A DNA stretch of 64,000 nucleotides. Source: Bremerella sp. P1 (GTDB taxonomy: Bacteria; Planctomycetota; Planctomycetia; Pirellulales; Pirellulaceae). The notes under the pieces were generated by a model. The model was given only the letters and a program-made list of their open reading frames with translations. It made no database searches and had not been told where the DNA came from. The stretch is taken from positions 4,427,814 through 4,491,813 of the forward strand of contig NZ_CP118164.1 in the NCBI RefSeq assembly GCF_028748185.1, read 5' to 3'. A program made the position numbers and the translations under genes. This document shows, one piece after another, positions 2,884 to 60,874 of this stretch (within the stretch, counting starts at the first letter, position 1; every line of letters begins with the position of its first letter).

Positions 2884-5062
2884 AAAGATCACCGGCACCG
2901 TTAATCGCGTTTACTTCAGTAGTCCCAAGTTCACAGCGGGAGTGCTCAAGACGGACAAAGACGCAACCGTTCGTTTCCGCGGGCCATTTTGCGCGAGCGA
3001 AGGCGACTGCATCACGCTCGTTGGCAAGTGGCAGAAGGATCCCAAGTACGGACCACAGTTCGCAGCCGAGAGCCTCAGTTACGAATTGCCCGAGAGTCCC
3101 GAGGGGCTGATTCAGTATCTGGCCAAGCATCCAGCGTTCGTTGGCATCGGCGAAGCGACGGCCCGGAAGATCGTGCAGTATGCCACCAGCGCCGCCAACT
3201 TGGACCGACTGATTCGCCAGGACCTGGACGAACTGCGGCAACAACTCCGCATCCCGAAGTCCACGCTCGTTTCGCTGCAGGAAGCCTGGATCGCCAACAG
3301 CGCCGACAACGAGATCCGCTCCTACCTGGCGGGGTTCGGATTGACCAACCACCAGATGGAGACGTTGCTCGAAACTTTCGGCAACTCGGTGGTGGGCGTG
3401 CTTCGTGCCGATCCGTATCAGCTGATTCGCTACGTCAAAGGCTATGGCTTCAAGAAGGTCGACAAGATCGCGCGAGCCATGGGGACGCCCAAGGATCACC
3501 CAGGCCGGATTGCGGCGGGACTGCTGTTCGTCGTCAGCGATGAACTGACATCGGGTCACACCTGGATCAGTCGAGCCAAGTTGATCGAGAAGGCCAACGA
3601 CCTGTTGCTACTCGACGCGATGGACAGTCTCGATGTGATCGGTGCCGCCGTCCACGAACTGCTGGCCGATAACCAGCTGCTTGCCGATGGTAACGCCGTC
3701 GCGATTCCTAGGTGTGTCGAGGCGGAAGAGTACATCCAGTCGATCTTCGACACCTATGGCTGGACCGAGCGTCCTGTGCGGCGCGTGAAGCAGAACCTGG
3801 TCGGCCTCAAGCCTCGACAGGCGGAAGCCTACCAGACCGCAATGGCCTATCCGATAGTCGTCATCTCGGGTGGCGCAGGCACGGGGAAAACGTACGTCGT
3901 CGCGCGATTGGCCGACGCCTATGAAAAGGCAAATCTCCGCGTGGCCCTCTGCTCGCCCACGGGCAAGGCGGCAAAACGGATCGAAGAGTCGTTGCGGGCA
4001 CAGGGAATTAACCTGGAGGCCAAGACGCTGCATCGGCTTCTAGGCTACGACGGGCACAAGTTCAATCGCGTCAGCCTCTCCGACCAAGCGCTCACCGAAG
4101 ACGGCGACATCGATGAGGATGCCGACCCGCCCTACGACGTGGTGGTCGTCGATGAGGTGTCGATGGTTGATGCGCCTCTGATGGCGGAATTGCTGAAGCG
4201 GATCGATTTCACGAGGACTCGTCTTGTCCTGGTGGGCGATCACAACCAACTGCCACCCGTCGGCCCAGGGAACGTCCTGCGGGACATCATCGATCACAAC
4301 CTGGTCCCCACGGTGATCCTCGACGAGGTCGTCCGGCAAGCCGGTATTCTGAAGACCAACAGCACGGCGATTCTCTCGGAGCGGATCGCGCCGACGGCAA
4401 CGGGCGATCCCGCGTGGACCGTGGTGGACGCATTCAAGGACCCGCAGCAGATCCAGGTTTACTTACGGGAACTGGTGCTCGAGAAGATCCCCAGTCGCCT
4501 TGGGCTCGACCCAATCTCCGACGTTCAGATCATCACCCCAACGCACATCGGGACGCTGGGGACCAAGGCAATCAATCAGATGATGCAGCGGGTGCTGCAC
4601 GGCAAAGTCGAGCGAAAGTTCACCGAAGGCGACAAGGTTATCCAGACCGTCAACGACTACGGGCTGGGTGTCATGAACGGGACGATTGGCCGTGTGATCG
4701 GTATCGAACCGGGCTCGGGCGGCGGTTACTGGATCGAATTCGATGGCTCCGGCCAGCGGCTGATTCAGAACGAACAGGTGCTCAACGTCCAGCTTGCCTA
4801 CGCGCTGACAGCGCATAAGGCCCAAGGGAGCGAGTTCCCCTGCGCCGTAGTGCTCTGCCACAAGTCGCACTTCTTTGCCGATCGCAACTGGCTCTACACG
4901 GCCGTCACGCGGGCCAGCCGCTACTGCATCCTCATGGGCGACCGCTGGGGGCTGCACAACGCCGTGAAGAAAAACAGCACGATCGATCGGCGAACGTTTC
5001 TGAGTCTATGGGCCAGCCGCAAGGATGTGATCGCGGAATCACCGCTGGAGGTGCCGGCATGA
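2876..5062 (+). CDS. RecD2-like superfamily 1 DNA helicase
   Basis: A 728-residue helicase of the RecD-like family. An N-terminal OB-like and helix-hairpin-helix region (residues 1-320) is followed by the motor: Walker A GGAGTGKTYVV near residue 335, Walker B VVVDEVSMVD, motif III VGDHNQLPPVG, and C-terminal motifs ALTAHKAQGSEF and LYTAVTRAS. RecD2-type enzymes are 5'-to-3' helicases. Start 2876 follows GTGGAGGTG and overlaps the ERCC4 gene. It sits between a structure-specific nuclease and the primase, so it is a candidate replicative or recombination helicase. Family is secure; polarity is from family knowledge. Confidence 0.88.
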   Translation: MARKITGTVNRVYFSSPKFTAGVLKTDKDATVRFRGPFCASEGDCITLVGKWQKDPKYGPQFAAESLSYELPESPEGLIQYLAKHPAFVGIGEATARKIVQYATSAANLDRLIRQDLDELRQQLRIPKSTLVSLQEAWIANSADNEIRSYLAGFGLTNHQMETLLETFGNSVVGVLRADPYQLIRYVKGYGFKKVDKIARAMGTPKDHPGRIAAGLLFVVSDELTSGHTWISRAKLIEKANDLLLLDAMDSLDVIGAAVHELLADNQLLADGNAVAIPRCVEAEEYIQSIFDTYGWTERPVRRVKQNLVGLKPRQAEAYQTAMAYPIVVISGGAGTGKTYVVARLADAYEKANLRVALCSPTGKAAKRIEESLRAQGINLEAKTLHRLLGYDGHKFNRVSLSDQALTEDGDIDEDADPPYDVVVVDEVSMVDAPLMAELLKRIDFTRTRLVLVGDHNQLPPVGPGNVLRDIIDHNLVPTVILDEVVRQAGILKTNSTAILSERIAPTATGDPAWTVVDAFKDPQQIQVYLRELVLEKIPSRLGLDPISDVQIITPTHIGTLGTKAINQMMQRVLHGKVERKFTEGDKVIQTVNDYGLGVMNGTIGRVIGIEPGSGGGYWIEFDGSGQRLIQNEQVLNVQLAYALTAHKAQGSEFPCAVVLCHKSHFFADRNWLYTAVTRASRYCILMGDRWGLHNAVKKNSTIDRRTFLSLWASRKDVIAESPLEVPA

Positions 5063-5325
5063 CCAGCGATAGCCACAACGGCCACGATCCCGTCGCGCGA
5101 CCTCGCCACTACACCTTCGGCTCGATCGAAGTGATCGACGCCATCGAAGCGTGGGGGCTTGGGTTTCACCTGGGCAACGTCGTGAAGTACACAGCCCGCG
5201 CCGCGCACAAGGGTCGTTACCTCGAGGACCTTCGCAAGGCCCGCTGGTACCTGGAGCGAGAACTTCAGCGGCATGAATCGAATGCACCAGCAGAAGAGGA
5301 GCAGTCACAGGAGGCACACTCTTGA
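5059..5325 (+). CDS. DUF3310 family protein
   Basis: An 88-residue protein whose core (HYTFGSIEVIDAIEAW, then GNVVKYTARAAHKG and EDLRKARWYLERELQ) matches DUF3310, a small family common in phage replication regions and sometimes labelled nucleotide-kinase-like without a proven activity. It overlaps the helicase stop by ATGA and the primase start by TTGA, so three genes are translationally coupled. A role in nucleotide metabolism or replication is suggested only by location. Confidence 0.8.
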   Translation: MTSDSHNGHDPVARPRHYTFGSIEVIDAIEAWGLGFHLGNVVKYTARAAHKGRYLEDLRKARWYLERELQRHESNAPAEEEQSQEAHS

Positions 5326-7883
5326 GTTCAGCGCCGGCCATTGACCCAAGCACCATCACCGAGAACGCTCCCGCGTGCATTCGCCAATTATCACAGTGGG
5401 TTGCGTGGAAATACGTCGAGCGCGACGGAAAGCCAACGAAGGCACCGGTGAATCCCCACACGGGGTCGCTCGCGAAATCCACCGAGCCCGACACGTGGGG
5501 CACTTTCGACAGAGCAATCGCCGCTTGCCAGAGCGATAGCGGGCTTGCCGGCGTCGGCTTTGTGTTCTCGGCCGATGACCAATACTGCGGCGTGGACCTC
5601 GATGACTCGATCAATCCCGACTCCCGTCAGCTCAAGGGCTGGGCGGCCGACATTGTCGAGCGACTCGATAGCTACACCGAGATCAGTCCCTCGGGCACGG
5701 GCCTAAAGGTCTTTCTCAAGGCCAACAAACCGGGCTCCCGCTGCCGCAAGGCCTACCACGACGGTGAAGTCGAGATCTACGACAACGGTCGGTTCTTCAC
5801 GCTCACCGGGCAGCGCCTGGATACCGCATCCTTTGCGATAGAAGATCGCCAAGGCCAACTCGAGCAGGTCTATCGAGCCGTCTTTGGTGAAGACGATGGT
5901 CACACGGCGGGCTGTCCATCCACGACGCCTCGTCCCAAGCCGAGCGACAACGGTCACGTCTCGCTGGATGACGACGAGATCATTCAGCTCGCTTCCAACC
6001 AGCGACGCACCGGAGCGAAGTTCTCGGCGCTCTGGTCGGGCGACTGGAACTCGCACTTCAACTCCGCAAGCGAAGCGGACTCGTCGGTCGTATTCACGCT
6101 GGCGTTCTACACCAAAGATGCTGGGCAGATCGATCGGCTGTTTCGTCAGTCGGGATTGATGCGAGAGAAGTGGGATCAGTTGCACGGCGAGCAGACCTAC
6201 GGCGAGATAACAATCGACAAGGCGCTCGCCAAGGTCACCAAGCAGTACAAACCAAAGGGCAAGCGGAAGCGATCACGACCCCAGCCACCACCGCCAACCA
6301 AGCCCGGCCTGCCGTCGATTCTGATCGATGACATCCAGCTCAGCGATCTGACCGACCAGGCACTCGCCGCACTCATCGGAGCCAACAAGCCACCCAGCGT
6401 ATTCGTCCGTGCGGGATCCGTGGCCCGAGTGATGAGAGACGAGAACGGCGTTCCGAAGATTGAATCCTTCGATCGAGTGCGGATGCGTTGCCGGCTCTCA
6501 GAGGTCGCCAACTTCTTCACGCTTCGCAAGGGCGAAGGTGGAGCCTACGAGCAGGTAGGTACGAATCCACCGCTGTCGCTTGCGGAGAATGTCTTGGCCC
6601 AGACCGCCTGGGATCTGCCGCCGCTGGCCGGTATCGCCCGCGCTCCAATCCTGCGGCAAGACGGGACGATCTGCACGACGCCCGGCTACGACGCCCAGAG
6701 CCGGTTGATGTATTGCCCGGATCCGGATTTGAAGCTCGTGCCGATCCCCGAGTATCCCTGCGGCGAAGAGGTCCGAGCTTGCGTCGATATCCTGCTGGAC
6801 GTGATCAGCGACTTCCCGTTCGCCGACGAACCGAGCCGAGCCAACGCGCTGGCAATTCTGTTCACGCTGCTGATGCGGCCGGTGATCACAGGGCATGTGC
6901 CGCTGGCGATTATTGATGCGCCGATGCAGGGAACCGGCAAGACGCTGCTGGTCACATCGCTTGCCACGATTGCGGTGGGCAACATCTCGTCCGAGTCGAT
7001 CCCCTCGCGGGACAACGACGACGAGTGGCGTAAGAAGATCACGTCGATCTTGCTGGCCGCTTCGCCGTTCGTGCTGCTGGATAACATCCCGGACAACACC
7101 ACGATCGATTCGCCGTCCCTTGCCGCCGCACTCACGAGCGATGAATGGTCCGACCGACTACTCGGTCGCAACAACGCGATCCGGCTGCCTTCACGCGTCG
7201 TCTGGGCTGCCACTGGCAATAACCTGCGGGTCGCCGGCGACATGCCACGCCGTAGCTATGGCATTCGGCTCGACGCCAATGCTGAGCGGCCGTGGGAGCG
7301 CACCGGATTCAAGATCAAAGGCCTCGAGCGACATATCCAAGAGCGGCGTGGTGATCTTCTCTCGGCAGCGCTGACGATCGTTCGGGCCTGGTACACGAAC
7401 GGCAAGCCCACTGCGGATGTGCCCACGCTGGGCAGCTTCGATGAGTGGGCCGAGACCATCGGTAGCGTGCTGGCGTTCGCTGGGATCGACGGCTTTCTAG
7501 GCAACCTGGAGCAGACACAACTGGTCCAGGACGAGGATACGCAGCAGTGGGCTGCCTTCTTCGAGGCGTGGTGGGAAGCGTTCGAATCCACCCCAGTGGT
7601 GGTGGATGAACTGTGCCAACAGATCCTTGCGCACGGTGGCGTACAAGACCGCGCGCTGCCCGATCCGCTCGTTGTACAGCGCGATAAAGGCGAGGGCGCG
7701 CTGCGCAGGTCGCTCGGACGCCATCTCTCACGACTCACGGGCCGCATCTTCAACGGGCGCAAGCTGTTATGCGCCGGCAGCGACACGAAACGGAAGGTTC
7801 GACGGTGGAAGCTGTCGGGGTTAATAACCCCGACGAAAACCAATAACCCCGACACTAACCCCGACCAGCAAAGGCTTTGGTGA
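5322..7883 (+). CDS. Phage primase(-polymerase)/helicase
   Basis: An 853-residue replication protein. The N-terminal third resembles archaeo-eukaryotic primase/NrS-1-polymerase-type domains: an acidic VDLDD near residues 91-95 and a SPSGTGLKVF segment near 125, where the usual His is replaced by Lys. The C-terminal half is a P-loop ATPase with GTGKT near residue 538, a DNIPD Walker B region and a conserved AATGNN sensor stretch. TTG is the chosen start because AGGAGG lies at the right distance and it overlaps the upstream stop. The last 20 codons contain the first iterons of the origin-like cluster. The family is firm; polymerase activity and self-primed initiation are inferred. Confidence 0.8.
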   Translation: MSSAPAIDPSTITENAPACIRQLSQWVAWKYVERDGKPTKAPVNPHTGSLAKSTEPDTWGTFDRAIAACQSDSGLAGVGFVFSADDQYCGVDLDDSINPDSRQLKGWAADIVERLDSYTEISPSGTGLKVFLKANKPGSRCRKAYHDGEVEIYDNGRFFTLTGQRLDTASFAIEDRQGQLEQVYRAVFGEDDGHTAGCPSTTPRPKPSDNGHVSLDDDEIIQLASNQRRTGAKFSALWSGDWNSHFNSASEADSSVVFTLAFYTKDAGQIDRLFRQSGLMREKWDQLHGEQTYGEITIDKALAKVTKQYKPKGKRKRSRPQPPPPTKPGLPSILIDDIQLSDLTDQALAALIGANKPPSVFVRAGSVARVMRDENGVPKIESFDRVRMRCRLSEVANFFTLRKGEGGAYEQVGTNPPLSLAENVLAQTAWDLPPLAGIARAPILRQDGTICTTPGYDAQSRLMYCPDPDLKLVPIPEYPCGEEVRACVDILLDVISDFPFADEPSRANALAILFTLLMRPVITGHVPLAIIDAPMQGTGKTLLVTSLATIAVGNISSESIPSRDNDDEWRKKITSILLAASPFVLLDNIPDNTTIDSPSLAAALTSDEWSDRLLGRNNAIRLPSRVVWAATGNNLRVAGDMPRRSYGIRLDANAERPWERTGFKIKGLERHIQERRGDLLSAALTIVRAWYTNGKPTADVPTLGSFDEWAETIGSVLAFAGIDGFLGNLEQTQLVQDEDTQQWAAFFEAWWEAFESTPVVVDELCQQILAHGGVQDRALPDPLVVQRDKGEGALRRSLGRHLSRLTGRIFNGRKLLCAGSDTKRKVRRWKLSGLITPTKTNNPDTNPDQQRLW

Positions 7884-8036
7884 GAACATGTTACGAACTG
7901 CGTCGGGGTTATCGGGGTTATTTGCCGTCTATGCTTACACGTACGCGAGATGTACGCGCGCTGTAAGAGGCGTACACGTACATGAGCGCAATACAAGTAG
8001 CGGGAAAATAACCCGAGCAACCCCGCTAACCCCGAC
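7814..8036. repeat. Iteron cluster A (TAACCCCGAC), putative replication origin
   Basis: Six exact copies of TAACCCCGAC: forward at 7825, 7844, 7856 and 8027; reverse at 7814 and 7902. Degenerate copies lie at 7911, 8009 and 8018. Neighbouring copies are spaced 9-12 bases, about one helical turn. The first pair forms a 21-base palindrome with a one-base centre. Four copies lie inside the last codons of the primase gene. Between the arms is a GTAC-rich core with TTACACGTA (7935-7943) and a CTTACA/TGTAAG inverted repeat (7934-7967). The gap from 7884 to 8334 holds no convincing gene; 8037-8334 shows only the leader of the next gene. Confidence 0.7.
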
Positions 8037-46310: not shown

Positions 46311-46688
46311 CTACTGCAATATCTCTTTCCATTTCCACCGCTGTATCTTCCAATCTACAAACGCCGCAATCGACCTCAGATCCCGCTCCGTTACCGGATC
46401 CCGCCCGCGCTCAGTCATCGGCAAGAACAGAATCTCTTCCTGAATATCGGGCGCCAACTGCAACAGATTCATGATCTGCGTCAACCTAGCTCGGGTGACG
46501 TGACCAACCCGCGCCAGTTCGGCCTGGTCGGTAACCTCACCGCTCTGAATCAAATGGTCGAGTCGAATCGCCAACGCCATGAGCCGGGCCACACGTGGCA
46601 CACGACCGCCCTTAGTTGAAGGTCTTGCATTGCGCTTTCTTTCGCGTCCACGCGCATTGAAATCCACCTTCCGCTTAATCGTGGTCAT
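46311..46688 (-). CDS. Recombinase-associated HTH protein
   Basis: A 125-residue basic protein with an Arg/Lys-rich N-terminus and a HTH region (QAELARVGHVTRARLTQIMNL) followed by LAPDIQEEILFLP. This family regularly lies just downstream of large serine recombinases with a four-base overlap, as here. It may direct or regulate recombination. Two degraded relatives exist in the window (33.8 and 44.9 kb). Confidence 0.75.
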   Translation of the reverse strand: MTTIKRKVDFNARGRERKRNARPSTKGGRVPRVARLMALAIRLDHLIQSGEVTDQAELARVGHVTRARLTQIMNLLQLAPDIQEEILFLPMTERGRDPVTERDLRSIAAFVDWKIQRWKWKEILQ

Positions 46689-48244
46689 ACCGCCACCTCC
46701 TCTCGATTTGGTAACTCACCAGCCAATGCCCGAATCCCGCTGGGCCGAAAAGTTATCGATACGTTCCCCGCATCACCGTCGTACTCAATCCGCTCAATCA
46801 AGAGCTCGACAATCCGAATCTGTTCGTGCGGCTCCAGGCATTGCCATACGACGTCGAAGTCGGCCAAAGCTGCAGTGACCTCGGTCTCGTCAATTAGATC
46901 GCTAGCGAGCGTGGCCAACTCGTTCTCAACTTCAGTCAGCCGTCGCTCTGCATCACCGATCCGGTCGTGAGCGATTACCAGCCGTGAGTCGCCAGGACCA
47001 ACCGTCGCGGCCACCTGCGCTAGTTCTGCGTGGTAGTCGCGTAGTTCGCCCCGAAGGTCGTTGCGTTCGACTGTTAGCCGCTGGGATTGGTTTTCCATCT
47101 GAATGCGTGCTTCTTTCAACGTCGCTTCGATCACCTGGGGATCGCGCCCGATCGCCTTGATCTCTTCGACAATGAACCGCTCAATTTCACCTGCGGGGAT
47201 CGATGGGGCAGGGCAGTGTTTCCAACCTCGTTTCTGAGCCCTTTGGCAGACGTAGTACCGATAGAGGCGGCTTCCTTTCTTCTGCGAGTAGGAATGGCTC
47301 ATCCCACAATTACAGGCCGCACATCTCAGGATCCCCCGTAGCAGGGCCTTGTGCTTGTTCCGAACCGCCCTGCCTCCACTCCGGCCATTCTTCTGCAGCA
47401 GCTTTTGAACTTTATCGAACGTCTCCGGATCAATAATCGCGTCCTGCTCGCCTTCGTGGACCTCCTTCTTGTAGCGAACCTTGCCGATGTAGATCACGCT
47501 GGTCAGCAGGGCGTACAGCGACCCCTTATCGAAGCGTCGACCACCTCGTTCGGTTCCGCGTTTCGTTTTCCATAGCTTGTTCCGCCAACCGCGATTGTGG
47601 AGTTCCTGAGCCACATCGAGCAGGGATTGCCGTTCCAGGTACATCCCGAAGATATCTTGAACCCGTCGTGCTTCGGCCTCGTTTATGACTAACTTCGTGT
47701 TCTCAACGTTGTACCCCAGGATCGGCGTCCCACCGGACCATTTGCCCTTCCGGCGTGCCGCGGCCATTTTGTCTCGGGTACGTTCCGAAATCATCTCACG
47801 TTCAAATTGGGCGAAACTTAGAAGTACGTTGAGGACCAGCCGCCCCATTGAGGAAGCCGTGTTGAAGGCCTGGGTCACGCTGACGAAGGAAACCTCGTGC
47901 TTGTCGAAGACCTCCATGATCCGTGAGAAGTCGAGCAGGCTACGGCTGAGGCGATCGACTTTATAAACCACCACGCAGTTTACCTTCCCCGATTCGATAT
48001 CCGCCAAGAGCCGCCGGAGGGCAGGGCGTTCCATATTGGCCCCAGTGAAGCCACCGTCGTCGTATTGGTCCGGAAGACATACCCACCCCTCGTGCATTTG
48101 GCTCTTGATGTAGGCCTCACCCGCTTCCCGTTGGGCATCGAGGGTGTTGAAGTCCTGATCGAGACCCTCCTCCGTCGATTTTCTTGTGTAAATCGCACAC
48201 CGGATCACCTTGGGTTTCGACGGTGGTTTAACGCGTTTGTTCAT
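46685..48244 (-). CDS. Large serine recombinase
   Basis: A 519-residue site-specific recombinase. The catalytic domain has CAIYTRKSTEEG (nucleophile Ser 23), then VYKVDRLSRSLLDF and FAQFEREMISERTRDK. The recombinase domain (about 190-290) and a zinc ribbon (CAACNCGMSHSY, later YVCQRAQKRGWKHC) follow, with a coiled coil (about 380-460). It probably integrates and excises element B. It is intact and overlaps both neighbours by ATGA, which supports one transcript. Confidence 0.9.
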   Translation of the reverse strand: MNKRVKPPSKPKVIRCAIYTRKSTEEGLDQDFNTLDAQREAGEAYIKSQMHEGWVCLPDQYDDGGFTGANMERPALRRLLADIESGKVNCVVVYKVDRLSRSLLDFSRIMEVFDKHEVSFVSVTQAFNTASSMGRLVLNVLLSFAQFEREMISERTRDKMAAARRKGKWSGGTPILGYNVENTKLVINEAEARRVQDIFGMYLERQSLLDVAQELHNRGWRNKLWKTKRGTERGGRRFDKGSLYALLTSVIYIGKVRYKKEVHEGEQDAIIDPETFDKVQKLLQKNGRSGGRAVRNKHKALLRGILRCAACNCGMSHSYSQKKGSRLYRYYVCQRAQKRGWKHCPAPSIPAGEIERFIVEEIKAIGRDPQVIEATLKEARIQMENQSQRLTVERNDLRGELRDYHAELAQVAATVGPGDSRLVIAHDRIGDAERRLTEVENELATLASDLIDETEVTAALADFDVVWQCLEPHEQIRIVELLIERIEYDGDAGNVSITFRPSGIRALAGELPNREEVAV

Positions 48245-51584: not shown

Positions 51585-51665
51585 GTTCGATTTGCTGCAA
51601 TTCCGCCGGGGGTTGTCATCGCAAGTTTCGCGGTGGCAATCACCCTCGACATGGAGATTGCAGAA

Positions 51666-52298
51666 ATGAAGGACCGACACACGTCCGCGGACTCTCCGGA
51701 GCCCATCACCTCGGAGCCCAAGCCGCTCGATTCGTTCACGCAGGGCTATGTGCAGAAATGTGCTCGCCAGCTGATTGGTCGCCACGGCTTCACCGACTCT
51801 GACCGCGCCGAACTTGAGCAGACACTCTTTCTGAAACTGGCTGGGAAGTTCGACCAGGCCAACCCCGACGATCCGCATTGGAAGGCCTTTGTCGCTAAGA
51901 CGGTCAGTCGTCACATCGCAAGCGTGATCCGGGACCGAAAGGCTCCCAAGCGGGATCACCGCCGAACGATCTCGATCCATGTTCAAGTGACGACCGAGGA
52001 AGAAGGGCCGATGGAACTAGCCAACGTGCTGCAGGACCACGAGAAGCCCTCGCGCCGTAGCCAGGAGCTTCGCTGTGAACAGGAACTTGCCGAGCTTCGG
52101 GAAGATGTGGCGGCCTGTATCCAGCGACTACGTGATCCTCGGTTTCGCGTACTTTGTAAACATCTGATGAATGGTACCGTCGCCGAGGCCGCGCGAAACA
52201 TGGATGTTCCACGATCAACCATTGACGCATGGCTCCCAAAGATCCGTCATCGATTTGAGGAGATGGGACTTTCAGAATATTTGCAAATTCCTTCGTGA
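51666..52298 (+). CDS. Sigma-70/ECF-like RNA polymerase sigma factor
   Basis: A 210-residue protein with a sigma region 2-like segment (YVQKCARQLIGRHGF, then KAFVAKTVSRHIASVIRDRK) and a region 4-like HTH (AEAARNMDVPRSTIDAWLPKIRHRFEE). Phage-encoded factors of this type redirect host polymerase. The start is set at 51666 where GGAGA lies upstream; 51651 or 51633 are alternatives. It may recognise the shared promoter-like elements, but that is untested. Confidence 0.7.
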   Translation: MKDRHTSADSPEPITSEPKPLDSFTQGYVQKCARQLIGRHGFTDSDRAELEQTLFLKLAGKFDQANPDDPHWKAFVAKTVSRHIASVIRDRKAPKRDHRRTISIHVQVTTEEEGPMELANVLQDHEKPSRRSQELRCEQELAELREDVAACIQRLRDPRFRVLCKHLMNGTVAEAARNMDVPRSTIDAWLPKIRHRFEEMGLSEYLQIPS

Positions 52299-52358: not shown

Positions 52359-52652
52359 ATGAAGACTGAAGTGTATCGATACCGTTTTGCTAAAGACGTT
52401 TCTAGTGATGATGTCGAGGCCGCGATTCTGCTATCGATCTGGGCGTGTGAGTCTCTCCGCGGCGAGTCGCAAACCCGAATGGATGCCACGCATTTCTTCG
52501 ACACCGAAGAGATGAGCTGCGTCATTGATGCAGGGACGGATATCGGCATGGATTTCAATCGGCTGTTCGTCGGGTTTCTGACCCGGGAGATGGGGCCAGA
52601 TGCGTTTCGTATCGAACGGGTGAAGAAGCCCGTGGAGGCCGTTGCTGCTTAG
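52359..52652 (+). CDS. Small conserved hypothetical protein
   Basis: A 97-residue protein: VYRYRFAKDVSSDDVEAAIL, ESLRGESQTRMDATHF, CVIDAGTDIGMDFNRLFVGF and DAFRIERV. The repeated acidic/hydrophobic pattern suggests a small alpha/beta fold. Similar proteins occur in phage and plasmid regions. No function is known. AAGGAA precedes the ATG. Confidence 0.6.
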   Translation: MKTEVYRYRFAKDVSSDDVEAAILLSIWACESLRGESQTRMDATHFFDTEEMSCVIDAGTDIGMDFNRLFVGFLTREMGPDAFRIERVKKPVEAVAA

Positions 52653-52700
52653 TCGTCGCACATCAAACGCTCGGATGCCAGGTTTAGGAGGGCCGATTGA

Positions 52701-55361
52701 ATGGAGTCAAACACGCAGGGAGATCATCCTCCAGGCGACATGCTCGAAGACGTCGAAATCGCCAATCGATTTCTGACCACACTTTTTGGCGAGCACGACA
52801 CGATTCTGTTCCGGCCCATTGAGACCTGGACTGAAGAGGGAAAGAAACGCAGCAGCGTTGATTATCGCAACACGTGCTATCGAGAAGCTGATCCCTCTCA
52901 GTTGAATGAAACCTTGCTGCAGCTAATTCGTAAGTCTGCGGCATACCGTTTGAACTTGTTCTTTGGAGTATGTCCACGATTAGGCGGTGACGGTCAGTAC
53001 GATCTGGCTTGGCAAATCAGGACCGTTCGGTCGCTGTGGTGTGATATCGATCATGCCACCCTCGACGAGGTTCGCGCACGTTTGAAAGAGTCATCGCTGC
53101 CTGAGCCGTCTATCGTGGTTCACTCCGGGAATGGAGTTCATCTTTATTGGCTGCTCGACCAGCCTTTCATGATTGATGATATTGGCGATCCGCCCGCGGT
53201 ACAGCTCGAATGGCAAGAGGGAAGCAAGAAGCCCCGAAAGTACATCGTCCAGGACCAGGAAAAGATCTATCTCGAGCAACGACAGAAGCTGCCTACGCTA
53301 AGTCCCAAGGCCCAACACGTCCAGGACATCTTGGCAGGTATCGCGGATACCGTCGGTGGTGACCACACGACTGATTTGTCGCGTCTTCTGCGGATACCGG
53401 GTTCTCTCAACCGAAAAGATGAGCGATCTGGCCAAGAGCCTGTGCCCACAGCACTCGTTGAGTGCCATCCGACGCGAAAGTATTCGCTCACAGACTTCGA
53501 GTCGTTCAAAAGAGCATCAGCGGAAGAGGAGCGAGCCAAGAAGATTGCCAGCATGCCTCTGCCACAGCCCCGTCGCATGTCGGCTGGAAAGGCAGACAAA
53601 CTATCAGAACTGATTGCGATCAGCGAACTGACGGAGCCAGGCAGGCGTTCTGAAGCGGACTTCTCGGTGTGTTGCTTCGCTATTCAGAACGGCATTTATA
53701 AAGACGAAGTCTGGCGGCGCGTAGAAGGCGTTGGCAAATTCGCCGAAGAGGGTGAACGGTACTTCGATCGCACTTGGGATAAGGCGGAAGAGCTCGTTCG
53801 CGCCAAGACGCTCGAGAAACTGGAATTCCAGGCTGGGTTCCATCGACCTACAGATGGTGATGGACTCAATGAAGAGGACGCACATCTCCCAGGCAAGCCG
53901 CCAGAAGAGACATATCCGACGATCTGTGTGAAGACATCCTTCACGCCTGTTGCCAAGACGATGTCGCGAATCACCGATATGCTGCTGGAGATAGGTGGCA
54001 GTTACGTCCGAGCCGATCAAGTTGTGTTCGTCAGCGGCGAGGAGATCATTCCGATTCTTTCATCAGCCGAATTATCTGGCCTTTTGAATCAATACGTCGA
54101 GTTTCTCTTTGTTGAGCACAAGCGGTACAGCTACAAGCCTTTGCCACCGAATTACGGCAGCACTTGGCTGAACCATCCTGGGGAACGTTCTCGCTTACCG
54201 GCGATCGACCTGTTCACCCGCAATCCGGTTTATTCCCACGACTGGCGATTGGTGACTCCTGGATATGATCCGAAGTCGAAGATTTTCTATGCCGGACCCG
54301 AGGTAACTTCACGTCGCGGGACACATCACCTCGATCGATTGCTCCGCGACTTCTGCTTTAAGACGCCAGGCGACCGCACCAACTACATCGGCATGCTCTT
54401 AACGACCGTGTTGATCCCGCACTTTATCGGCTCGAAGCCTGCGGTTCTTTTTAACGGGAACCAGCCGGGGCTAGGTAAGACGGTCCTCGGACAGATCATC
54501 TCCATCCTGCGGGACGGTAAAGCGGTTGAGACGGCCTCGTACAACGCCAACGACGAGGAGTTCGAGAAGCGTCTAGGATCCATCGTACGGCGCGGTGCCA
54601 CCATGATCATTGTGGACAACGCGAAGGGTAAAGGTCGCAGTCCACGCATCGATTCGGCTTGCCTGGAGCGTTCGATTACGGACCCGATTCTATCATTTCG
54701 ACTGCTCGGTCATTCTCAGGATATCCGTGCGGAAAACGCACACATCTTCTGTTTGACAGCTAACTCGCCTGACGTAAGCCGGGACCTGGTCACACGAAGC
54801 ATCGTGGTTAATCTCTTCCATGAAGGAAACCCTGAGCGTCGTTCGTTCTCGATCGATGATCCAGAAGGATATGCCATGGAACATCGCCTCGAGATACTCG
54901 GTGAGCTCATTGGCATGGTGGAGCATTGGAAAGCGTCGGGTAAGACCCTTGCCACAACTCACTCACGATTCAACAAGCGGGGCTGGGGCAATGTTATCGG
55001 CGGCATCCTCGAAGCCAACGGTGAACCCGACTTCCTGCTAAACAGTGAGGAAGCCGCGGTGCAACTCGATGACACACGTCGTGAGTTCAGTGACCTCGTC
55101 GCCTCGATGGCCGAACATCCCCAAGGCATGTGGGCGCCCAAAGAGCTGGTCGAGCACTGCGACATGAACGGATTCCTGAGTGAAGAACTTGGAGACGGTT
55201 CCCTTCGCTCGAAGACGACGAAGCTCGGAATGCTGGCCGGACGATTTGTTGCCGAATGTTTTGAGCTGACCGACGGCCGCACAGCTACGTTCATTCGATC
55301 AGAAGAACGCAAAGGAAACGTCTATCGCGTCGGAATCACCGAGAAAGTGCCGAACCTTTAG
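52701..55361 (+). CDS. Primase/helicase of element B (AEP-type)
   Basis: An 886-residue replication protein. The N-terminal domain has LWCDIDHA (DxD, near residue 113), VVHSGNGVHLYWLL (near 142) and DLSRLLRIPGSLNRK, the pattern of AEP primases of the RepB-like type. The C-terminal half is a P-loop ATPase with GNQPGLGKTVLG near residue 590, IIVDNAKGK as Walker B and FCLTANSPD as sensor. GGAGGG precedes the ATG. The final codons (VPNL) contain the first copy of the TGCCGAAC repeat. It differs in sequence from the element A enzyme but occupies the same position. Confidence 0.8.
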   Translation: MESNTQGDHPPGDMLEDVEIANRFLTTLFGEHDTILFRPIETWTEEGKKRSSVDYRNTCYREADPSQLNETLLQLIRKSAAYRLNLFFGVCPRLGGDGQYDLAWQIRTVRSLWCDIDHATLDEVRARLKESSLPEPSIVVHSGNGVHLYWLLDQPFMIDDIGDPPAVQLEWQEGSKKPRKYIVQDQEKIYLEQRQKLPTLSPKAQHVQDILAGIADTVGGDHTTDLSRLLRIPGSLNRKDERSGQEPVPTALVECHPTRKYSLTDFESFKRASAEEERAKKIASMPLPQPRRMSAGKADKLSELIAISELTEPGRRSEADFSVCCFAIQNGIYKDEVWRRVEGVGKFAEEGERYFDRTWDKAEELVRAKTLEKLEFQAGFHRPTDGDGLNEEDAHLPGKPPEETYPTICVKTSFTPVAKTMSRITDMLLEIGGSYVRADQVVFVSGEEIIPILSSAELSGLLNQYVEFLFVEHKRYSYKPLPPNYGSTWLNHPGERSRLPAIDLFTRNPVYSHDWRLVTPGYDPKSKIFYAGPEVTSRRGTHHLDRLLRDFCFKTPGDRTNYIGMLLTTVLIPHFIGSKPAVLFNGNQPGLGKTVLGQIISILRDGKAVETASYNANDEEFEKRLGSIVRRGATMIIVDNAKGKGRSPRIDSACLERSITDPILSFRLLGHSQDIRAENAHIFCLTANSPDVSRDLVTRSIVVNLFHEGNPERRSFSIDDPEGYAMEHRLEILGELIGMVEHWKASGKTLATTHSRFNKRGWGNVIGGILEANGEPDFLLNSEEAAVQLDDTRREFSDLVASMAEHPQGMWAPKELVEHCDMNGFLSEELGDGSLRSKTTKLGMLAGRFVAECFELTDGRTATFIRSEERKGNVYRVGITEKVPNL

Positions 55362-55718
55362 GGCTTTGCCGAACCTTTGCCGAACGTTGAATTGACGAAG
55401 GTTCGGCACACTTAAGTACAAGGATAGTAACGAGATGCAAACAGACTGCCGAACCTGCCGAACCTTAAAAGCAACCGAGAGCAATGCGCGAGTAAATAAC
55501 ATCATGCATTACACGTATACGTGTATAGGGTGTACTGGAAAAAGGTTCGGCAAGGTTCGGCAAGACCATCTAAGTAACTGTTTGCCAACCACTTATGTCG
55601 ACGCAAAGGTTCGGCACAACGTTCGGCAAGGGTTCGGCACCATGCAGGTGTCACCCATCTTAAGTCGTGTATCTGCAACGACCTACGTGCACGTTGAAGG
55701 TTCGGCAAACGTTCGGCA
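55348..55718. repeat. Iteron cluster B (TGCCGAAC), putative replication origin
   Basis: Thirteen exact copies of TGCCGAAC: five forward (55348, 55367, 55378, 55447, 55456) and eight reverse (55401, 55545, 55555, 55609, 55621, 55632, 55700, 55711). Neighbouring copies are mostly 9-12 bases apart. The first copy lies in the last codons of the primase gene. Between the arms is a 16-base palindrome TACACGTATACGTGTA (55510-55525) inside TTACACGTA. This is the layout seen at 7814-8036 with an unrelated repeat. The 388-base gap from 55362 to 55749 holds no gene. Confidence 0.75.
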
Positions 55719-55749
55719 GCGATCTATCTGAACGAAATGGAGGCAAATC

Positions 55750-55884
55750 ATGTGGCAATGGAAGAAGCGAATCGAACGACTAGTGACGCGCCGTGGCGGG
55801 ATGGTCCTAGCGCTGGACGCGTTCTTTGTTTTCATGGTGATCTTGTCCGCCGCGATTTGGATTCAGTTCTTTATCAACCTGTGA
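55750..55884 (+). CDS. Small membrane protein
   Basis: A 44-residue protein: a charged N-terminus (MWQWKKRIERLVTRRGG) and one membrane helix (VLALDAFFVFMVILSAAIWIQFFI). A GGAGG lies upstream. It occupies the same position as the 83-residue membrane protein of element A, between iterons and the ParB-methyltransferase. Confidence 0.65.
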   Translation: MWQWKKRIERLVTRRGGMVLALDAFFVFMVILSAAIWIQFFINL

Positions 55885-55900
55885 ACTCACGGAGGTACTT

Positions 55901-57158
55901 ATGAAGATCGAACAGTGGAATATCGCGGACGTCACACCGTACCCTAGCAACCCGCGCGTGAGCAACGGCGCAGTTGATGCCGTGGCGAAGTCCCTGGTCG
56001 AGTTTGGGTTTCGGCAGCCGATCGTGGTGGACGAAGCGGGCGTGATTATCGTCGGACACACGCGGCTCAAGGCGGCTCAGAAACTGGGCATGACCCATGT
56101 GCCGGTGCACATTGCTGAAGGCCTGTCGGATCGCGGACAATCAAACGGCGACCATTGCCGAATGGGACTTGGATCTCTTGCCGATCGAACTGAGTGCCCT
56201 CAAGGACGCCGACTACGAACTAGGGCTGCTTGGTTTCAAGGACGACGAACTGGCCAAGATGCTCAGTGGCGACGTGAAGGACGGGCTGAACGATCCCGAC
56301 GATGTGCCTGAGCCACCAGATGATCCGGTCACCCAGCCAGGCGACTTGTGGATCCTCGGCGACCATCGACTTTTGTGTGGAGATAGTTCTAAGGCGGAGG
56401 ATGTTGATCGCCTCCTCGACGGTGCCGTGATTCATCTTGTGAATACCGATCCGCCGTACAACGTGAAGGTGGAACCACGCAGCCGAAACGCCATCGCCGC
56501 GGGGAATAGCAGCTTTGCAGACTCGAGTAAACGTAAGTCGAATGGTGCCCCCAAGAAGATGCGGGCCAAGGATCGACCGCTGGCGAATGACTTCGTGACG
56601 GACGAGGAGTTCGATCGGTTACTCGACGCTTGGTTCGGCAACATGGCACGAGTGTTGGCGCCTGGACGTGCCATCTATATTTGGGGCGGATTCAGCAACT
56701 GTGCGAACTATCCGCCATTTCTCAAGAAGCATGGATTGTACTTCAGTCAGGCGATTATCTGGGATAAACAGCATCCGGTGTTGACGCGAAAAGATTTCAT
56801 GGGCGCGCACGAATGGTGCTTTTACGGTTGGAAAGAAGGCTCAGCCCACCAGTTCTTTGGTCCCAACAACGCCACCGACCTGTGGCACGTGAAGAAGGTC
56901 AATCCGCAGGCAATGGTCCATTTGACGGAGAAGCCCGTGGAGCTGGCTGTACGAGCGATTCAATACTCGTCGCGAGAGAGTGAAAACGTGCTCGACCTAT
57001 TTGGTGGGAGCGGCTCGACGTTGATTGGCTGTGAGCAGACTGGTCGCAAAGCGTATCTGATGGAACTGGATCAGGCCTACGCGGACGTAATTGTTGAAAG
57101 GTGGGAATCTTTTACTGGGAAGAAGGCTGAACGTGTTTCGGCGGAGGTGGTGGCGTGA
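55901..57158 (+). pseudogene. Frameshifted ParB-methyltransferase
   Basis: The ParB-like domain (GFRQPIVVDEAG, GHTRLKAAQKLG) is read from 55901 and is lost after HIAEGLS. The rest is in another frame from about 56,118: CRIADNQTATIAEW, DPPYN and DLFGGSGST. Relative to the element A protein, the residues between the two parts are missing and the frame is shifted. The break is at AAGGCCTGTCG (56118-56128), which would serve both frames, as expected after a short deletion between two copies of that word. The methyltransferase domain itself is otherwise intact. An internal start may still give a methyltransferase. Confidence 0.8.
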
Positions 57159-57163
57159 GCGTT

Positions 57164-57409
57164 CTACAGAATCTTCCCCAACAAGCTCTGGTTCATCACG
57201 TGGATCGCCTCGACCGCAACCAGGTGCTCCTGAATCAGGACATGGTCGTTGGTGTCGCCCACCCCGATGTCAGCGAACTCCAGCGATTGGGCCAGGCTCT
57301 GCAGGCCTTCGACCGCTTTGTAGTACGCGTCGCGGATCTCCTGGTACTGGTGTGGATCCATCTTCTGGAAGGCATCGCGAAGTTTGGTTTCGTGGGCGTT
57401 GGCGGGCAT
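57164..57409 (-). CDS. Small conserved protein, homologue of 10679-10933
   Basis: An 81-residue protein with the core KMDPHQYQEIRDAYYKAVEGL and C-terminal QSLLGKIL. It is the counterpart of the element A gene and lies right behind promoter-like copy 3. ATG 57409 is used because it matches the homologue's start. Function is unknown. Confidence 0.7.
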   Translation of the reverse strand: MPANAHETKLRDAFQKMDPHQYQEIRDAYYKAVEGLQSLAQSLEFADIGVGDTNDHVLIQEHLVAVEAIHVMNQSLLGKIL

Positions 57410-57448
57410 GGTTCGGTCTCCGGTTTGGGTTGCGTTTCGTATGACACA

Positions 57449-57477
57449 CATGAGCCATGGAAAGCTGAAAACATCAA
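57449..57477 (-). promoter_or_regulatory. Shared promoter-like element, copy 3
   Basis: TTGATG-N12-CATGGCTCATG on the minus strand, placed as in copy 1 and in front of the homologous gene. Confidence 0.6.
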
Positions 57478-57572
57478 GCTTCGTTCGCAGCGATTCAGCA
57501 GCTTTCTTTTGGGCCGCGAGGTTGGGCCGTGTGGCGCCGGAGTAGAAGACTGGCGTAACGAAGCCACCAACG

Positions 57573-57606
57573 AAAAAACGCCCAAACGTAGCGAACGTCG
57601 GGCGTT
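57573..57606 (-). terminator. Rho-independent terminator after HARE-HTH gene
   Basis: AACGCCC (57577-57583) pairs with GGGCGTT (57600-57606). On the minus strand the stem is followed by TTTTTT. Equivalent to the terminator at 11107-11138. Confidence 0.8.
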
Positions 57607-57628
57607 GTGTGGCAATTTACCGAGTGGC

Positions 57629-57988
57629 CTAGCCGTTGGTCGTGAACTTGCCTCGTTCGGTCTTCTTGAACCGGGCGTCTTTACCTTTCGTGTTGATCTC
57701 TCGGAGGATCGCCGAGTAGAGCGTGGCGTGCGGCGTCTTACCGCCTGGGCTGGACCAGTATTTCTTCTCGGCCATCGCGTCGATCATCTGCTTGGCGTTC
57801 AGCGGCTCCTTCGATTCGGTCAGTACCTTGGCCGCGGCGTCGAGAGCCGACAGGCGTTTGGTGGCGGGTTGTTTAGCGGGCTTGGCTTCGGCTGGCTTCG
57901 TGCCTTTTGCGGATCGTCCTTTCGTGGTGCCCTTGGTGCTGCCCTTCTTCGTAGCAGCGGTCGTGCGAGTGGTTTTCTTCGTGGTCAT
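57629..57988 (-). CDS. HARE-HTH protein with basic tail, homologue of 11375-11788
   Basis: A 119-residue protein. Residues 1-45 are Lys/Thr/Ala/Gly-rich (MTTKKTTRTTAATKKG and more), the rest a HARE-HTH winged helix ([41 protein letters not shown]). The tail sequence differs from the element A copy while the HTH part is conserved. It probably binds DNA through both parts. The gene has its own promoter element (copy 4) and terminator. Confidence 0.8.
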   Translation of the reverse strand: MTTKKTTRTTAATKKGSTKGTTKGRSAKGTKPAEAKPAKQPATKRLSALDAAAKVLTESKEPLNAKQMIDAMAEKKYWSSPGGKTPHATLYSAILREINTKGKDARFKKTERGKFTTNG

Positions 57989-58041
57989 GGTTCTTCTCCA
58001 AATAGTAAATGGTTGGTCGCGATCCGTGTCGCGTGGACACA

Positions 58042-58070
58042 CATGAGCCATGCATTTGAAAACACATCAA
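58042..58070 (-). promoter_or_regulatory. Shared promoter-like element, copy 4
   Basis: TTGATG-N12-CATGGCTCATG on the minus strand, with similarity to copy 2 extending more than 80 bases into the region before the packaging genes. Confidence 0.6.
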
Positions 58071-58119
58071 GCGCATCCAGCAGCAATTCAGAAGATTCTC
58101 TCTACACGGAGGTAGTGCC

Positions 58120-58623
58120 ATGCCTAAGCGTTTGAAAAGGCGGAGCGATACGAAGAGACGCGTCGGTCGAGACATCTACGAGGTGCGGCGCGGTTCGTCT
58201 TCCTCGCAAGGCTACGACGCCGATTGGGAACGGATCGCCAAGCGTCGGCGCCAACTCGATTACTACTTGTGCCAGGAGTGTTTGAAGCGTGGTCTAAGCA
58301 CTTCAGCCAAGGACGTCGACCACATCATCCCGTTGCACGTCCGACTCGACTGGCGACTCGAGATAGACAACACGCAGGTGCTTTGTCGCATGCATCATCG
58401 AGCTAAAACAGAGCGAGATAACGAACTTTTCGGGTCGAGTACGGAGGTCAATGTGAGTGCCATTCAGCAAGCCCGCAGAGATGCCGCTAGAAGGCTCCAG
58501 GAGCCTCTCAGAGGCCCGGGGGCGGGTCAAATAGTGACGCTGGTCGGCATGGGAACGCGTGCCCCCAAACACATATGCGCCCGCGAATTTAGAAGCCAGG
58601 GGGTGAAGAATGAGAGGTCGTAA
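58120..58623 (+). CDS. HNH endonuclease, packaging-associated
   Basis: A 167-residue protein. The HNH core is CQECLKRGLSTSAKDVDHIIPLH in two parts, with Asn in IDNTQVLC and the final MHHRAKTERD. HNH proteins next to HK97-type terminases help the terminase cut DNA at the cos site. GGAGGTAG precedes the ATG. It overlaps the P27 gene by 14 bases. The C-terminal 50 residues are not typical for the family. Confidence 0.8.
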   Translation: MPKRLKRRSDTKRRVGRDIYEVRRGSSSSQGYDADWERIAKRRRQLDYYLCQECLKRGLSTSAKDVDHIIPLHVRLDWRLEIDNTQVLCRMHHRAKTERDNELFGSSTEVNVSAIQQARRDAARRLQEPLRGPGAGQIVTLVGMGTRAPKHICAREFRSQGVKNERS

Positions 58624-59074
58624 ACCGAAGCCGACGGTACTGAAAATCCGCGAGGGGAATCCTGGTAAGCGTTCGCTCAATAAGGCCGAGCCGAATGCTC
58701 CTAGCGATGTACCGACGTGCCCAGAGTTCCTGGACGAAGTGGCTCAGGAGGAGTGGGACCGCATCTCGGGAATTCTCACGGAAATGGGCCTGCTCAGTAC
58801 AGCCGATCGCGCCGCACTTGCTGCCTATTGCACGGTGTACAGCCGCTGGGTTCACGCAGAAGAACAAGTGAAGAAGTTCGGCACGATCGTGAAGTCCCCC
58901 GAAAAGAATTTCCCCATGAAATCGCCGTATCTAACGGTCGCTGACCAAGCGATGGAATCGATGCGGAAGTTTCTGGTCGAGTTCGGTCTGACGCCATCCA
59001 GCCGCAGTCGTATCCGCGTGGAAACCAAGAAGTCTGCCGAGGATGAGTTTGACGCATTTGTGGGGGCAGGGTAG
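58610..59074 (+). CDS. Terminase small subunit, P27 family
   Basis: A 154-residue protein: GRKPKPTVLKIREGNPGKR at the start and PSDVPTCPEFL then EEWDRISGILTEMGLLSTADRAAL in consecutive segments, the P27-type signature. It binds phage DNA and loads the large subunit. It overlaps the HNH gene and ends one base inside the large subunit start. Confidence 0.85.
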   Translation: MRGRKPKPTVLKIREGNPGKRSLNKAEPNAPSDVPTCPEFLDEVAQEEWDRISGILTEMGLLSTADRAALAAYCTVYSRWVHAEEQVKKFGTIVKSPEKNFPMKSPYLTVADQAMESMRKFLVEFGLTPSSRSRIRVETKKSAEDEFDAFVGAG

Positions 59075-60669
59075 TGGACGTAACTCAGCAGTGGGTGAGA
59101 AGCTCCAGTGACGAGCGTGCCGTAGACGATGGCTGTTGGTTCGATGAAGAAGCGGCCCAACGCGTGCGTGAGTTCTTCCTCCGGTTTCTGAAGCACTCGA
59201 AGGGCCAGTGGGCCGGTAAACCGTTCGAGCTGTTAGGTTGGCAATGGACCGACGTGGTGGCCCCACTGTTCGGTTGGAAGCGAGCTGACGGGACTCGTCG
59301 CTTTCGCCGCGGCTATATCGAGGTGCCTAAGAAGAATGGGAAGAGCACACTGTTTGCTGGCTTGAGCTTGTACCTGCTGACGTGCGATGGCGAACCGGGG
59401 GCCGAAATCTACAGCGCAGCCTCGGATCGGGATCAGGCTTCCATCGTGTTCAATGAAGCAGCTAATATGGTCGACTACTCACCGCACCTGGCGTCGCGTC
59501 TTAAAGTGGTCCGTTCCACCAAGCGGATCGTGGACCATCGCAGTCGTTCTTTCTATCGCGCCCTATCCGCAGAGGTGCCGACCAAAGAAGGCCTCAATGC
59601 CCATGCGGTGCTGATGGACGAACTCCATGCTCAGAAGTCTCGGGAACTGTGGGACACGCTACGTTACGCGGGTGCTTCACGTAGACAGCCCCTCATGCTG
59701 GCCATTACGACTGCGGGGTTCGATCGGTTGAGCATCTGTTGGGAACAGCACGAATACGCGCGGCAGGTCCTGGAGGGGATCGTTGAGGATACGGCCTTCT
59801 TCCCCTACATCTCCGCCGCGGATGTTGAGGAAGACTGGACCACGCCTGAGGTGTGGCAGAAGGCGAACCCTAGTTTCGGCATTACCATCGACGCGGAACA
59901 GTTCGCCGAGGACTGTCGGGAAGCCCAGGAATCACCCGCCAAGGAGAACTCCTTCCGTCGGTACAGGCTTAACCAGTGGACGCAGCAGGAGTCGAGGTGG
60001 CTGAACATGGAGAAGTGGGACGCATGCGATGATGCCCTGGCGGAACTGGATGGTCGCACTTGTTTCGCGGGACTAGACCTATCCTCAACCACCGATATCT
60101 CCGCCCTTGTCCTTGTATTTGAGGAAGATGACCAATACGACGTGCTGCCGTTCTTCTGGGTACCGGAGGAAGGTGCCAAGCGGCGTGAGAAACGAGACCA
60201 CGCCCCCTACGTGCCGTGGATTCAGCATAGGTACGTCGAAGCGTCACCGGGTGAAGTTGTCGACTACGAACGCATCCGGGCCCGGATCAACGAATCGGGC
60301 AAACGATTCAAGATCGAACAGATCGCGATCGACCGATGGAATGCGACACAATTGGCCACGCAACTCGATGACGATGGATTCGAGATCGTATCGTTTGTCC
60401 AGGGATATGCGAGTATGTCGGCACCGACGAAGAAGCTGGAAGAATTAGTCCTGTCCAGGAAGCTACGTCACGCCGGGCACCCTGTGCTCCGCTGGATGGC
60501 TGGCAACGTGGCAATCGAGCAAGATGCGGCCGACAACTGGAAACCGTCCTAGAAGAAGAGTCAGGAGCGGATTGATGGGATCGTGGCGCTCGTGATGGCG
60601 GTGGACTTGGCGACTCGACATGTGGAAGACAAGAGCATCTACTCGGAGCGGGGAATGTTGTTTCTCTAG
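59074..60669 (+). pseudogene. HK97-type terminase large subunit with in-frame amber stop
   Basis: The ATPase part has EVPKKNGKSTLFAGLSL (Walker A variant) and HAVLMDELHAQ (Walker B); the nuclease part has CFAGLDLSSTTDISALVLVF and later IEQIAIDRWNATQLA. The frame meets TAG at 60550-60552 after DNWKPS. It then continues in the same frame as KKSQERIDGIVALVMAVDLA and ends IYSERGMLFL at 60669, the usual end of this family. So a Lys codon AAG probably became TAG and the last 39 residues are lost. Start is the GTG at 59074. Confidence 0.8.
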
Positions 60670-60874
60670 CTGAATTGTGATACGCCTTCCTTCGCTTCTT
60701 TGAAATCGTTCGGGTAATTGTTGGATAGCCTCAATGCCGGTGTTATTCCGTGGCCAGCGGACCAAAATCAACTCCTACTCAGACTTCCTAAATGGTTTGC
60801 GATAATTGCCGCCTAAGTAAAAACGACCAACGCAAGACATGTGAAGAGATCGACACACAAAGCCGCAGACTACC

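Follow-up and report, generated by a model that had tools for sequence, protein, structure and literature searches.

The 64,000-nucleotide stretch of the Bremerella sp. P1 genome analysed here (contig NZ_CP118164.1, positions 4,427,814 to 4,491,813; the window) contains two elements, A and B, each with a cluster of short repeats at the 3′ end of a primase-helicase gene. We concentrate on element B, and the question addressed is how satellites and phages with self-loading helicases switch the specificity of their origin yet keep the origin. The initiator gene of element B (52701-55361, forward strand) encodes a protein of 886 amino acids with an archaeo-eukaryotic primase (AEP)-like N-terminal part, a D5/SF3-like helicase (residues ~415-790) and a C-terminal winged helix (~782-880). 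Thirteen exact copies of the word TGCCGAAC lie in a 370-base cluster at its end (55348-55718), the first copy overlapping the last codons of the gene (stop codon 55359-55361). Both the count and the start within the primase's final codons confirm what the original prediction, made from the letters of the window, had described.

The word is concentrated at this site. The window holds 17 copies in total, against 3.6 ± 1.75 in shuffled sequences (0 of 100 shuffles reached 17), and the whole genome, a single contig of 6.96 Mb (6,955,728 bases), holds 597. Outside the cluster TGCCGAAC occurs about once per 12 kb, and the array is ∼400 times as dense as the rest of the genome. Direct pairs of the word 0-30 bases apart are found eight times in the genome, seven of them inside array B. 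The genome-wide count therefore bears out the local enrichment that had been proposed.

The copies are arranged around a central gap in mixed orientation. The left half-module (55348-55463) comprises six sites, five forward and one reverse (+++-++; 55348+, 55367+, 55378+, 55401-, 55447+ and 55456+), and the right half (55545-55718) seven, all reverse (55545, 55555, 55609, 55621, 55632, 55700 and 55711). The core between the inner pairs (55464-55544) measures 81 bp. The array strand folds well (z -7.9), which is expected from inverted copies and was not counted as evidence. No RNA family was detected in 52500-58500.

The core carries a 16-base palindrome, TACACGTATACGTGTA (55510-55525), held within an 18-base run of alternating purines and pyrimidines (55510-55527). 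The nonamer TTACACGTA (55509-55517) had been placed inside this palindrome; the palindrome is present, but the nonamer protrudes from it by one base. Although two occurrences of TTACACGTA per window are unexpected (0.02), only 3 of 19 regions compared hold it, namely B, A and L029 (loci are designated by L numbers), the last being the only relative among them and a 94% copy. We therefore rejected TTACACGTA as the common core, and prefer the alternating tract instead: in 16 of 21 cores the alternating run is longer than expected (p < 0.01, by shuffles that preserve single-base composition only). The tract is not general, since the runs of L094, L095, L062, L060 and L058 are not significant at 0.01. 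Core GC content ranges from 0.41 to 0.68 across the 21 loci. The core of B, at 0.41 against 0.53 for its kilobase, is somewhat AT-richer than its surroundings, whereas those of the family are not.

No Pfam domain was found in the primase-helicase at an E-value of 0.001, and the domain assignments come from structure. An AlphaFold model built from 30 sequences reached a predicted local distance difference test (pLDDT) score of 83.5 and a predicted template modelling (pTM) score of 0.52. Searched against the PDB with Foldseek, it gave AEP primases as top matches (RepB′ 3h20, E 2.6e-7; S-2L PrimPol 6zp9, 4e-7), together with D5-like helicases (poxvirus E5, 7e-5; NrS-1 6k9e, 7e-5; and, more weakly, PriRep1 7pds, 5e-3). 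The winged helix (residues ~782-880, encoded by 55044-55340, forward strand; domain model pLDDT 88) is the proposed reader of the repeats. Its own structure search returned middling and unspecific matches, including Fur, MecI, cullin WHB and FoxP4. The solved C-terminal domain of the P4 alpha protein (1ka8) is absent among the winged-helix matches listed, and no inference is drawn from that absence.

The spacing of the left half closely resembles that of the replication origin of P4. Measured from the innermost site, the left half of B reads -108+ -89+ -78+ -55- -9+ 0+, and the annotated type-I repeats of P4 ori read -96+ -86+ -75+ -53- -10+ 0+. Counting agreement within 3 bp and in orientation, B matches five of the six P4 positions, a result equalled by 127 of 20,000 random placements. 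Among relatives, L074 reads -86+ -75+ -53- -10+ 0+, and the left half of L060 reads -93 -85 -75 -53(-) -8 0 with a right half that is nearly its mirror image, L073 being likewise symmetric. Both halves of L060 and the right half of L073 match all six positions (0, 0 and 4 of 20,000 random placements), and the weakest half, in L048, matches four (1,078 of 20,000); this comparison covered ten halves from eight loci that we chose among those with arrays. Across 30 loci, also our choice among loci with arrays, convergent inner pairs are present in 22, of which 20 have an opposed site at -53 to -57; the remaining eight (L034, L079, L066, L075, L036, L068, L044 and L057) have no convergent pair. Copy number and phasing are thus kept among relatives, contrary to the poor conservation that would have spoken against the original prediction.

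The same spacing can be recovered by a scan that is blind to the word and searches by spacing alone. In the window all 24 hits fall in 55366-55712, that is, in array B alone, and in P4 the scan finds ori and one lone hit at 7502. It is also positive in the Streptococcus thermophilus satellite Javan614, in the region 3′ of the primase, where the left half reads -86 -75 -54(-) -8 0 and the mirrored right half -86 -75 -65 -54(-) -8 0 (at most two mismatches), the two symmetric halves enclosing an AT-rich core. Scores were absent from 11 other phages with such helicases, from 41 mononucleotide shuffles and from eight three-kb pieces of the same genome taken around single TGCCGAAC copies, and no such module was found in Javan304 and 14 other phages. 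Five further records gave one score (MissG2, 4) and four blanks (Javan304, Sfi19, AcaML1 and Mae-JY28), and a score of 3 or more also arose in 1 of 100 shuffled versions of the streptococcal loci; the shuffles used with the scan keep single-base composition only. Among 89 B-family loci, which include duplicates, truncated contigs, N-terminal-only and distant hits, 48 score, 25 of them with full score.

While the spacing is retained, the word changes. Relatives from planctomycete genomes and viral contigs carry TGCGGAACGT, TGCCGAACGT, TGCGGAACCT, TGCCGGACGT, TGCAGACGT, TCCGGACGT or TGCGGATAGT, and more distant ones GGTGAACCT, ATTAACCT or GGGTGAAG, each recurring throughout its own array, so that in planctomycete relatives the difference is array-wide. 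The base register of the nine-letter words TGCAGACGT, TCCGGACGT and TGCGGACGT was aligned by hand from the 3′ end. In many relatives the array lies directly behind the helicase gene, and there too the first copy falls in the last codons. On a tree of 25 rows built from the helicase part only, repeat base 9 changes at least eight times. Seventeen loci fetched later were also examined, most of them judged, from the helix and wing segments, to be near-copies of loci already included; six (L170, L191, L192, L193, L199 and L201) lack an array in the searched stretch, and L168 and L198 offer nothing beyond weak repeats. The distant relatives L044-L048 encode helicases of ~330-600 amino acids that lack the primase part, and in some of them a frame that by eye resembles a DNA polymerase follows the array.

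Two residues of the winged helix vary together with two bases of the word. Residue 841 (K in B; codon 55221-55223), in helix 835-847 of the model, tracks base 9: lysine accompanies C and arginine accompanies G in 20 of 21 loci, which remained from 30 rows after thinning of loci more than 85% alike. Among 570 columns it ranks top with z 11.1, the next column reaching 4.1. In the first alignment K841 went with ...ACCT and R841 with ...ACGT; eight predictions were written down on this basis, of which seven held and one, L073, failed. Counted per copy over 27 loci, base 9 is C 62 times and G eight times with lysine, and with arginine G 102 times, C 30 times (12 from L073) and another base three times; the arrays of L036 and L080 are weak or mixed at this base. 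Residue 871 (K in B; codon 55311-55313), between the two wing strands of the model, tracks base 4, lysine going with C in 11 loci and asparagine with G in six, that is, 17 of 17 with none contrary (column z 11.5, next 5.1). Shuffled labels reached the observed value in 0 of 1,000 trials for residue 871 and in 7 of 1,000 for residue 841, kinship being ignored. Among supported independent contrasts, all three at residue 871 and a mean of 2.8 of three at residue 841 go in the predicted direction, none being contrary. Among the loci added afterwards, the pattern holds for both letters in L187 and L189 and for base 9 in L197. Bases 9 and 4 would be separated by half a turn, an arrangement that would suit reading by a winged helix. 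In L105, which has asparagine at residue 841, base 9 is C and G equally often in its array (4849-5182; six copies each).

A second element at 5.75 Mb of the same genome (the second copy, L030) has both letters switched: its protein, 74% identical to that of B, carries R841 and N871, and its word is TGCGGAACGT. In the flanks the two elements share 80-93% DNA identity in most 400-base blocks, with lower blocks of 0.72-0.73 at 48.5-48.9 and 56.5-57.3 kb, whereas identity over 53.3-55.7 kb, which spans helicase, winged helix and array, is 0.62-0.78. Against a third copy of the element, in G008, there is no such dip (0.89-0.94). The diverged block fits an exchange of initiator and origin as a unit between elements, as described for the replicons of PLE, a Vibrio cholerae satellite (PMC8263062); faster divergence of the block is possible instead.

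Taken together, these results make it very probable that array B serves element B as its replication origin and is bound by the neighbouring primase-helicase. This reading is the best supported because the spacing is P4-like, because the array stands behind the helicase gene in many relatives and because two C-terminal residues track bases of the word; the same three observations favour the proposal that the origin is served by a primase other than that of cluster A. In the mechanism that we infer, the primase-helicase would bind TGCCGAAC through its C-terminal winged helix, with the recognition helix entering the major groove close to base 9 and the wing lying near base 4. With six sites per half, one hexamer would be seated to either side of the core, and the two rings, facing each other across it, would melt the core and load for replication. 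If word and reading residues change jointly, each element would acquire a specific origin, as in incompatibility groups.

Several observations weigh against this interpretation or restrict its reach. Sequence homology to P4 alpha is undetected, hhalign aligning the Walker A stretch only, with a probability of 0.7%. GC skew shows no switch at array B, and the opposed site of L060, L073 and L048 has no counterpart in the right half of B. The association with the helicase gene has exceptions: some helicase relatives have no array in the 600 bases past the stop, none was found for L076 and some others, in L078 (6030-6240) and L080 (17964-18180) the array lies ~3 kb and ~7 kb downstream of the gene, and in L105 it precedes a late stop. 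The base-9 rule is broken by L073 and its near-copy L186, in which arginine goes with C in 12 copies each. The rows are related, and with three supported independent contrasts for each residue a sign test cannot reach 0.05. Finally, at least four of the 48 hits of the spacing scan (L041, L083, L090 and L092) look like chance.

Other functions for the array were considered. It occupies the space that separates the primase gene from those for methylase and terminase, and its words could be operator sites in a transcription-control region for the genes that follow, an idea to which a weak phage sigma-factor match upstream (51633-52298, E 3e-7) lends something. We regard this as improbable, given that 55200-56000 contains no sigma-70-type promoter-like site and that the word tracks residues of the primase. 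Moreover, L066 and L035 (the latter on the same contig as L079), with five exact copies each, have arrays but different next genes, the next relative found being an integrase ~1.1 kb on. The loci of L066 and L035 likewise contain no ParB or methylase relative that we could find, which counts against the array being either a centromere of the ParB type or a site on which the ParB-methylase acts, both suggested by the start of a ParB-like domain and methylase 180 bases downstream. Partition sites, too, are unlike a mixed-orientation array with P4-like spacing, and we give this explanation hardly any weight. The terminase pair that follows could also mean that the array is a pac site, where packaging starts, recognized by the small terminase encoded 2.9 kb downstream. 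Among 31 targets, made up of 29 loci and two joined regions and including some that overlap or are cut short, only the second copy and G008 yielded relatives of that small terminase, whereas arrays occur in many other targets, and there is no reason why a packaging word should track the winged helix of the primase; a pac function is accordingly very unlikely.

A rival of a different kind accepts array B as an origin and attributes the spacing shared with P4 and PICI-like satellites (PICIs, phage-inducible chromosomal islands) to convergence, imposed by what a ring of six subunits is able to bind, and not to common descent. The lack of detectable sequence homology to P4 alpha and the different primase types, AEP-like in B and TOPRIM in P4, speak for it. 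Against it stand the shared D5-like type of the helicases (B by fold, alpha by Pfam Pox_D5 and D5_N) and the agreement of four to six positions within 3 bp, orientation included. We give convergence a substantial chance, somewhat short of even. Returning to the origin interpretation as a whole, we lean slightly towards a single six-site half-module of fixed spacing that P4, streptococcal satellites and the elements of planctomycetes have in common, whatever their word, host phylum or type of primase, combined in planctomycetes with a two-residue code (841 with base 9, 871 with base 4) that would predict replication compatibility, and with an alternating purine-pyrimidine tract, in place of AT-rich DNA, as the unwinding core.

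Several published systems come close to array B. In PICIs and the related Staphylococcus aureus pathogenicity islands (SaPIs), the latter compared by descriptions in papers, the origin lies directly 3′ of the rep gene, two iteron sets surround a core and an AT-rich region is described (PMC6092414), and the C-terminal domain reads the iterons (PMC7581432). The array of B is likewise immediately 3′ of its primase gene, with 6 + 7 copies around 55464-55544, and both halves of the S. thermophilus satellite Javan614 carry the spacing seen in the B family. Unlike PICI origins, B-family cores are mostly not AT-rich, alternating tracts being the commoner feature; the hosts are planctomycetes, and the module also occurs beside phage portal and terminase genes (L093). 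The AEP-like primase fused to the helicase is a further difference, tempered by the fused forms that PICIs also have.

P4 shares with B the +++-++ order of six type-I sites at nearly the same offsets and a D5-type helicase, and the C-terminal domain of alpha binds the repeats (PMC4234260). P4 differs in its TOPRIM primase, the N-terminus of B modelling as an AEP primase, in its word, GGTGAACA, and in having crr 4.7 kb from ori. Because the AT-rich core and the TOPRIM primase are missing and homology to alpha is unseen, we place B in neither family and regard it as a variation on the type of origin that PICIs and P4 represent. The mirrored crr repeats of P4 (L148:4291-4590) each open with the 0+ -9+ -52- pattern of the ori half-module, and crr may be a displaced right half of the P4 origin.

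Two further systems share part of the design. In PLE, the DNA-binding domain of RepA_N and the origin covary and are swapped between elements (PMC8263062); unlike in B, neither a helicase nor a primase function is predicted for the RepA_N initiator (PMC7145576), and its iterons are ~30 bp. A single protein of the pRN1 replicon joins an AEP primase and a helicase to a C-terminal winged helix, as in B, and the origin lies 3′ of the gene (PMC4234260), as does the array of B, but that origin is described as a stem-loop lacking iterons, against 13 in B. DnaA-dependent iteron plasmids differ as well, since no DnaA box of the E. coli-type consensus TTWTCCACA was found with up to one mismatch in 54737-60620. 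The literature covered on satellite and planctomycete origins, iterons and covariation, which did not extend to the original SaPI and P4 origin papers, contains no report of the array, the shared spacing or the residue code.

The spacing is nearly fixed, while every copy of the word shifts along with two residues, both among several sister pairs and between the two elements of this genome. This suggests that sequence may reveal which starter protein fits which start site. If so, the replication compatibility of such elements could be predicted and changed from sequence, and the spacing would offer a word-independent route to finding their origins. A layout described as unique to PICIs would, moreover, extend to elements of planctomycetes, where most cores are not AT-rich.

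Element B extends over ~14 kb from a large serine recombinase (integrase; 46685-48244, reverse strand) at its opposite end to the terminase (60552). Behind the array follow, on the forward strand, a ParB-like domain (55901-56311) and an N6/N4 DNA methylase (56097-57158) in two overlapping frames, the small terminase subunit (58610-59074; phrog_83, E 1.6e-52) and the large terminase subunit (59074-60552); the element also has HNH. The ParB-like domain and the methylase form a single protein in element A. The large-terminase frame of B is ~39 codons shorter at its end than that of the second copy, a difference located at 60550-60670 of the window. Host genes (an RRM protein and FloA) come after element B, and from 60875 onwards the sequence is again homologous to G008, over 5.9 kb and at 93%; the left flank of the G008 element has no match in the genome that carries B. 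Nothing convincing was found among attachment-site repeats of at least 11 bases at the ends of element B. Among the open reading frames of element B scanned there are no portal, capsid or tail genes, and the element looks like a satellite or a remnant. We favour a satellite because three copies (B, the second copy and G008) keep the same gene order. A large terminase is unusual for PICIs, and element B has one.

Element A, with terminase, portal, capsid/protease and tape measure genes, is a full prophage by its gene content, and A and B may form a satellite-helper neighbourhood. L093 has a B-type replication module beside A-like terminase and portal genes. Cluster A (7815-8035; word TCGGGGTTA) had been assigned the same layout as array B. 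The coarse arrangement agrees, in that the copies start in the last codons at the 3′ end of a primase-helicase gene, convergent pairs 9 bp apart flank a core with alternating stretches, and an opposed site lies at -55; the base-pair spacing does not, the left half of A reading 0+ -9+ -55- -67- -86- -97+, with the remaining sites (-67-, -86- and -97+) as well as the word unlike those of B. Cluster A was rejected as the same module, being unseen by the word-blind scan, in which only 2 of 30 A-family loci score. Close relatives of A carry arrays of other words, and within the A family (L118-L122) these include AACCCCGA, GAGGTTAC, ACCCCGCA, CCGGGTTA and CGAGGTTA. The left half of cluster A also recalls the mirrored order of P4 crr (0+ -9+ -52- -70- -84+).

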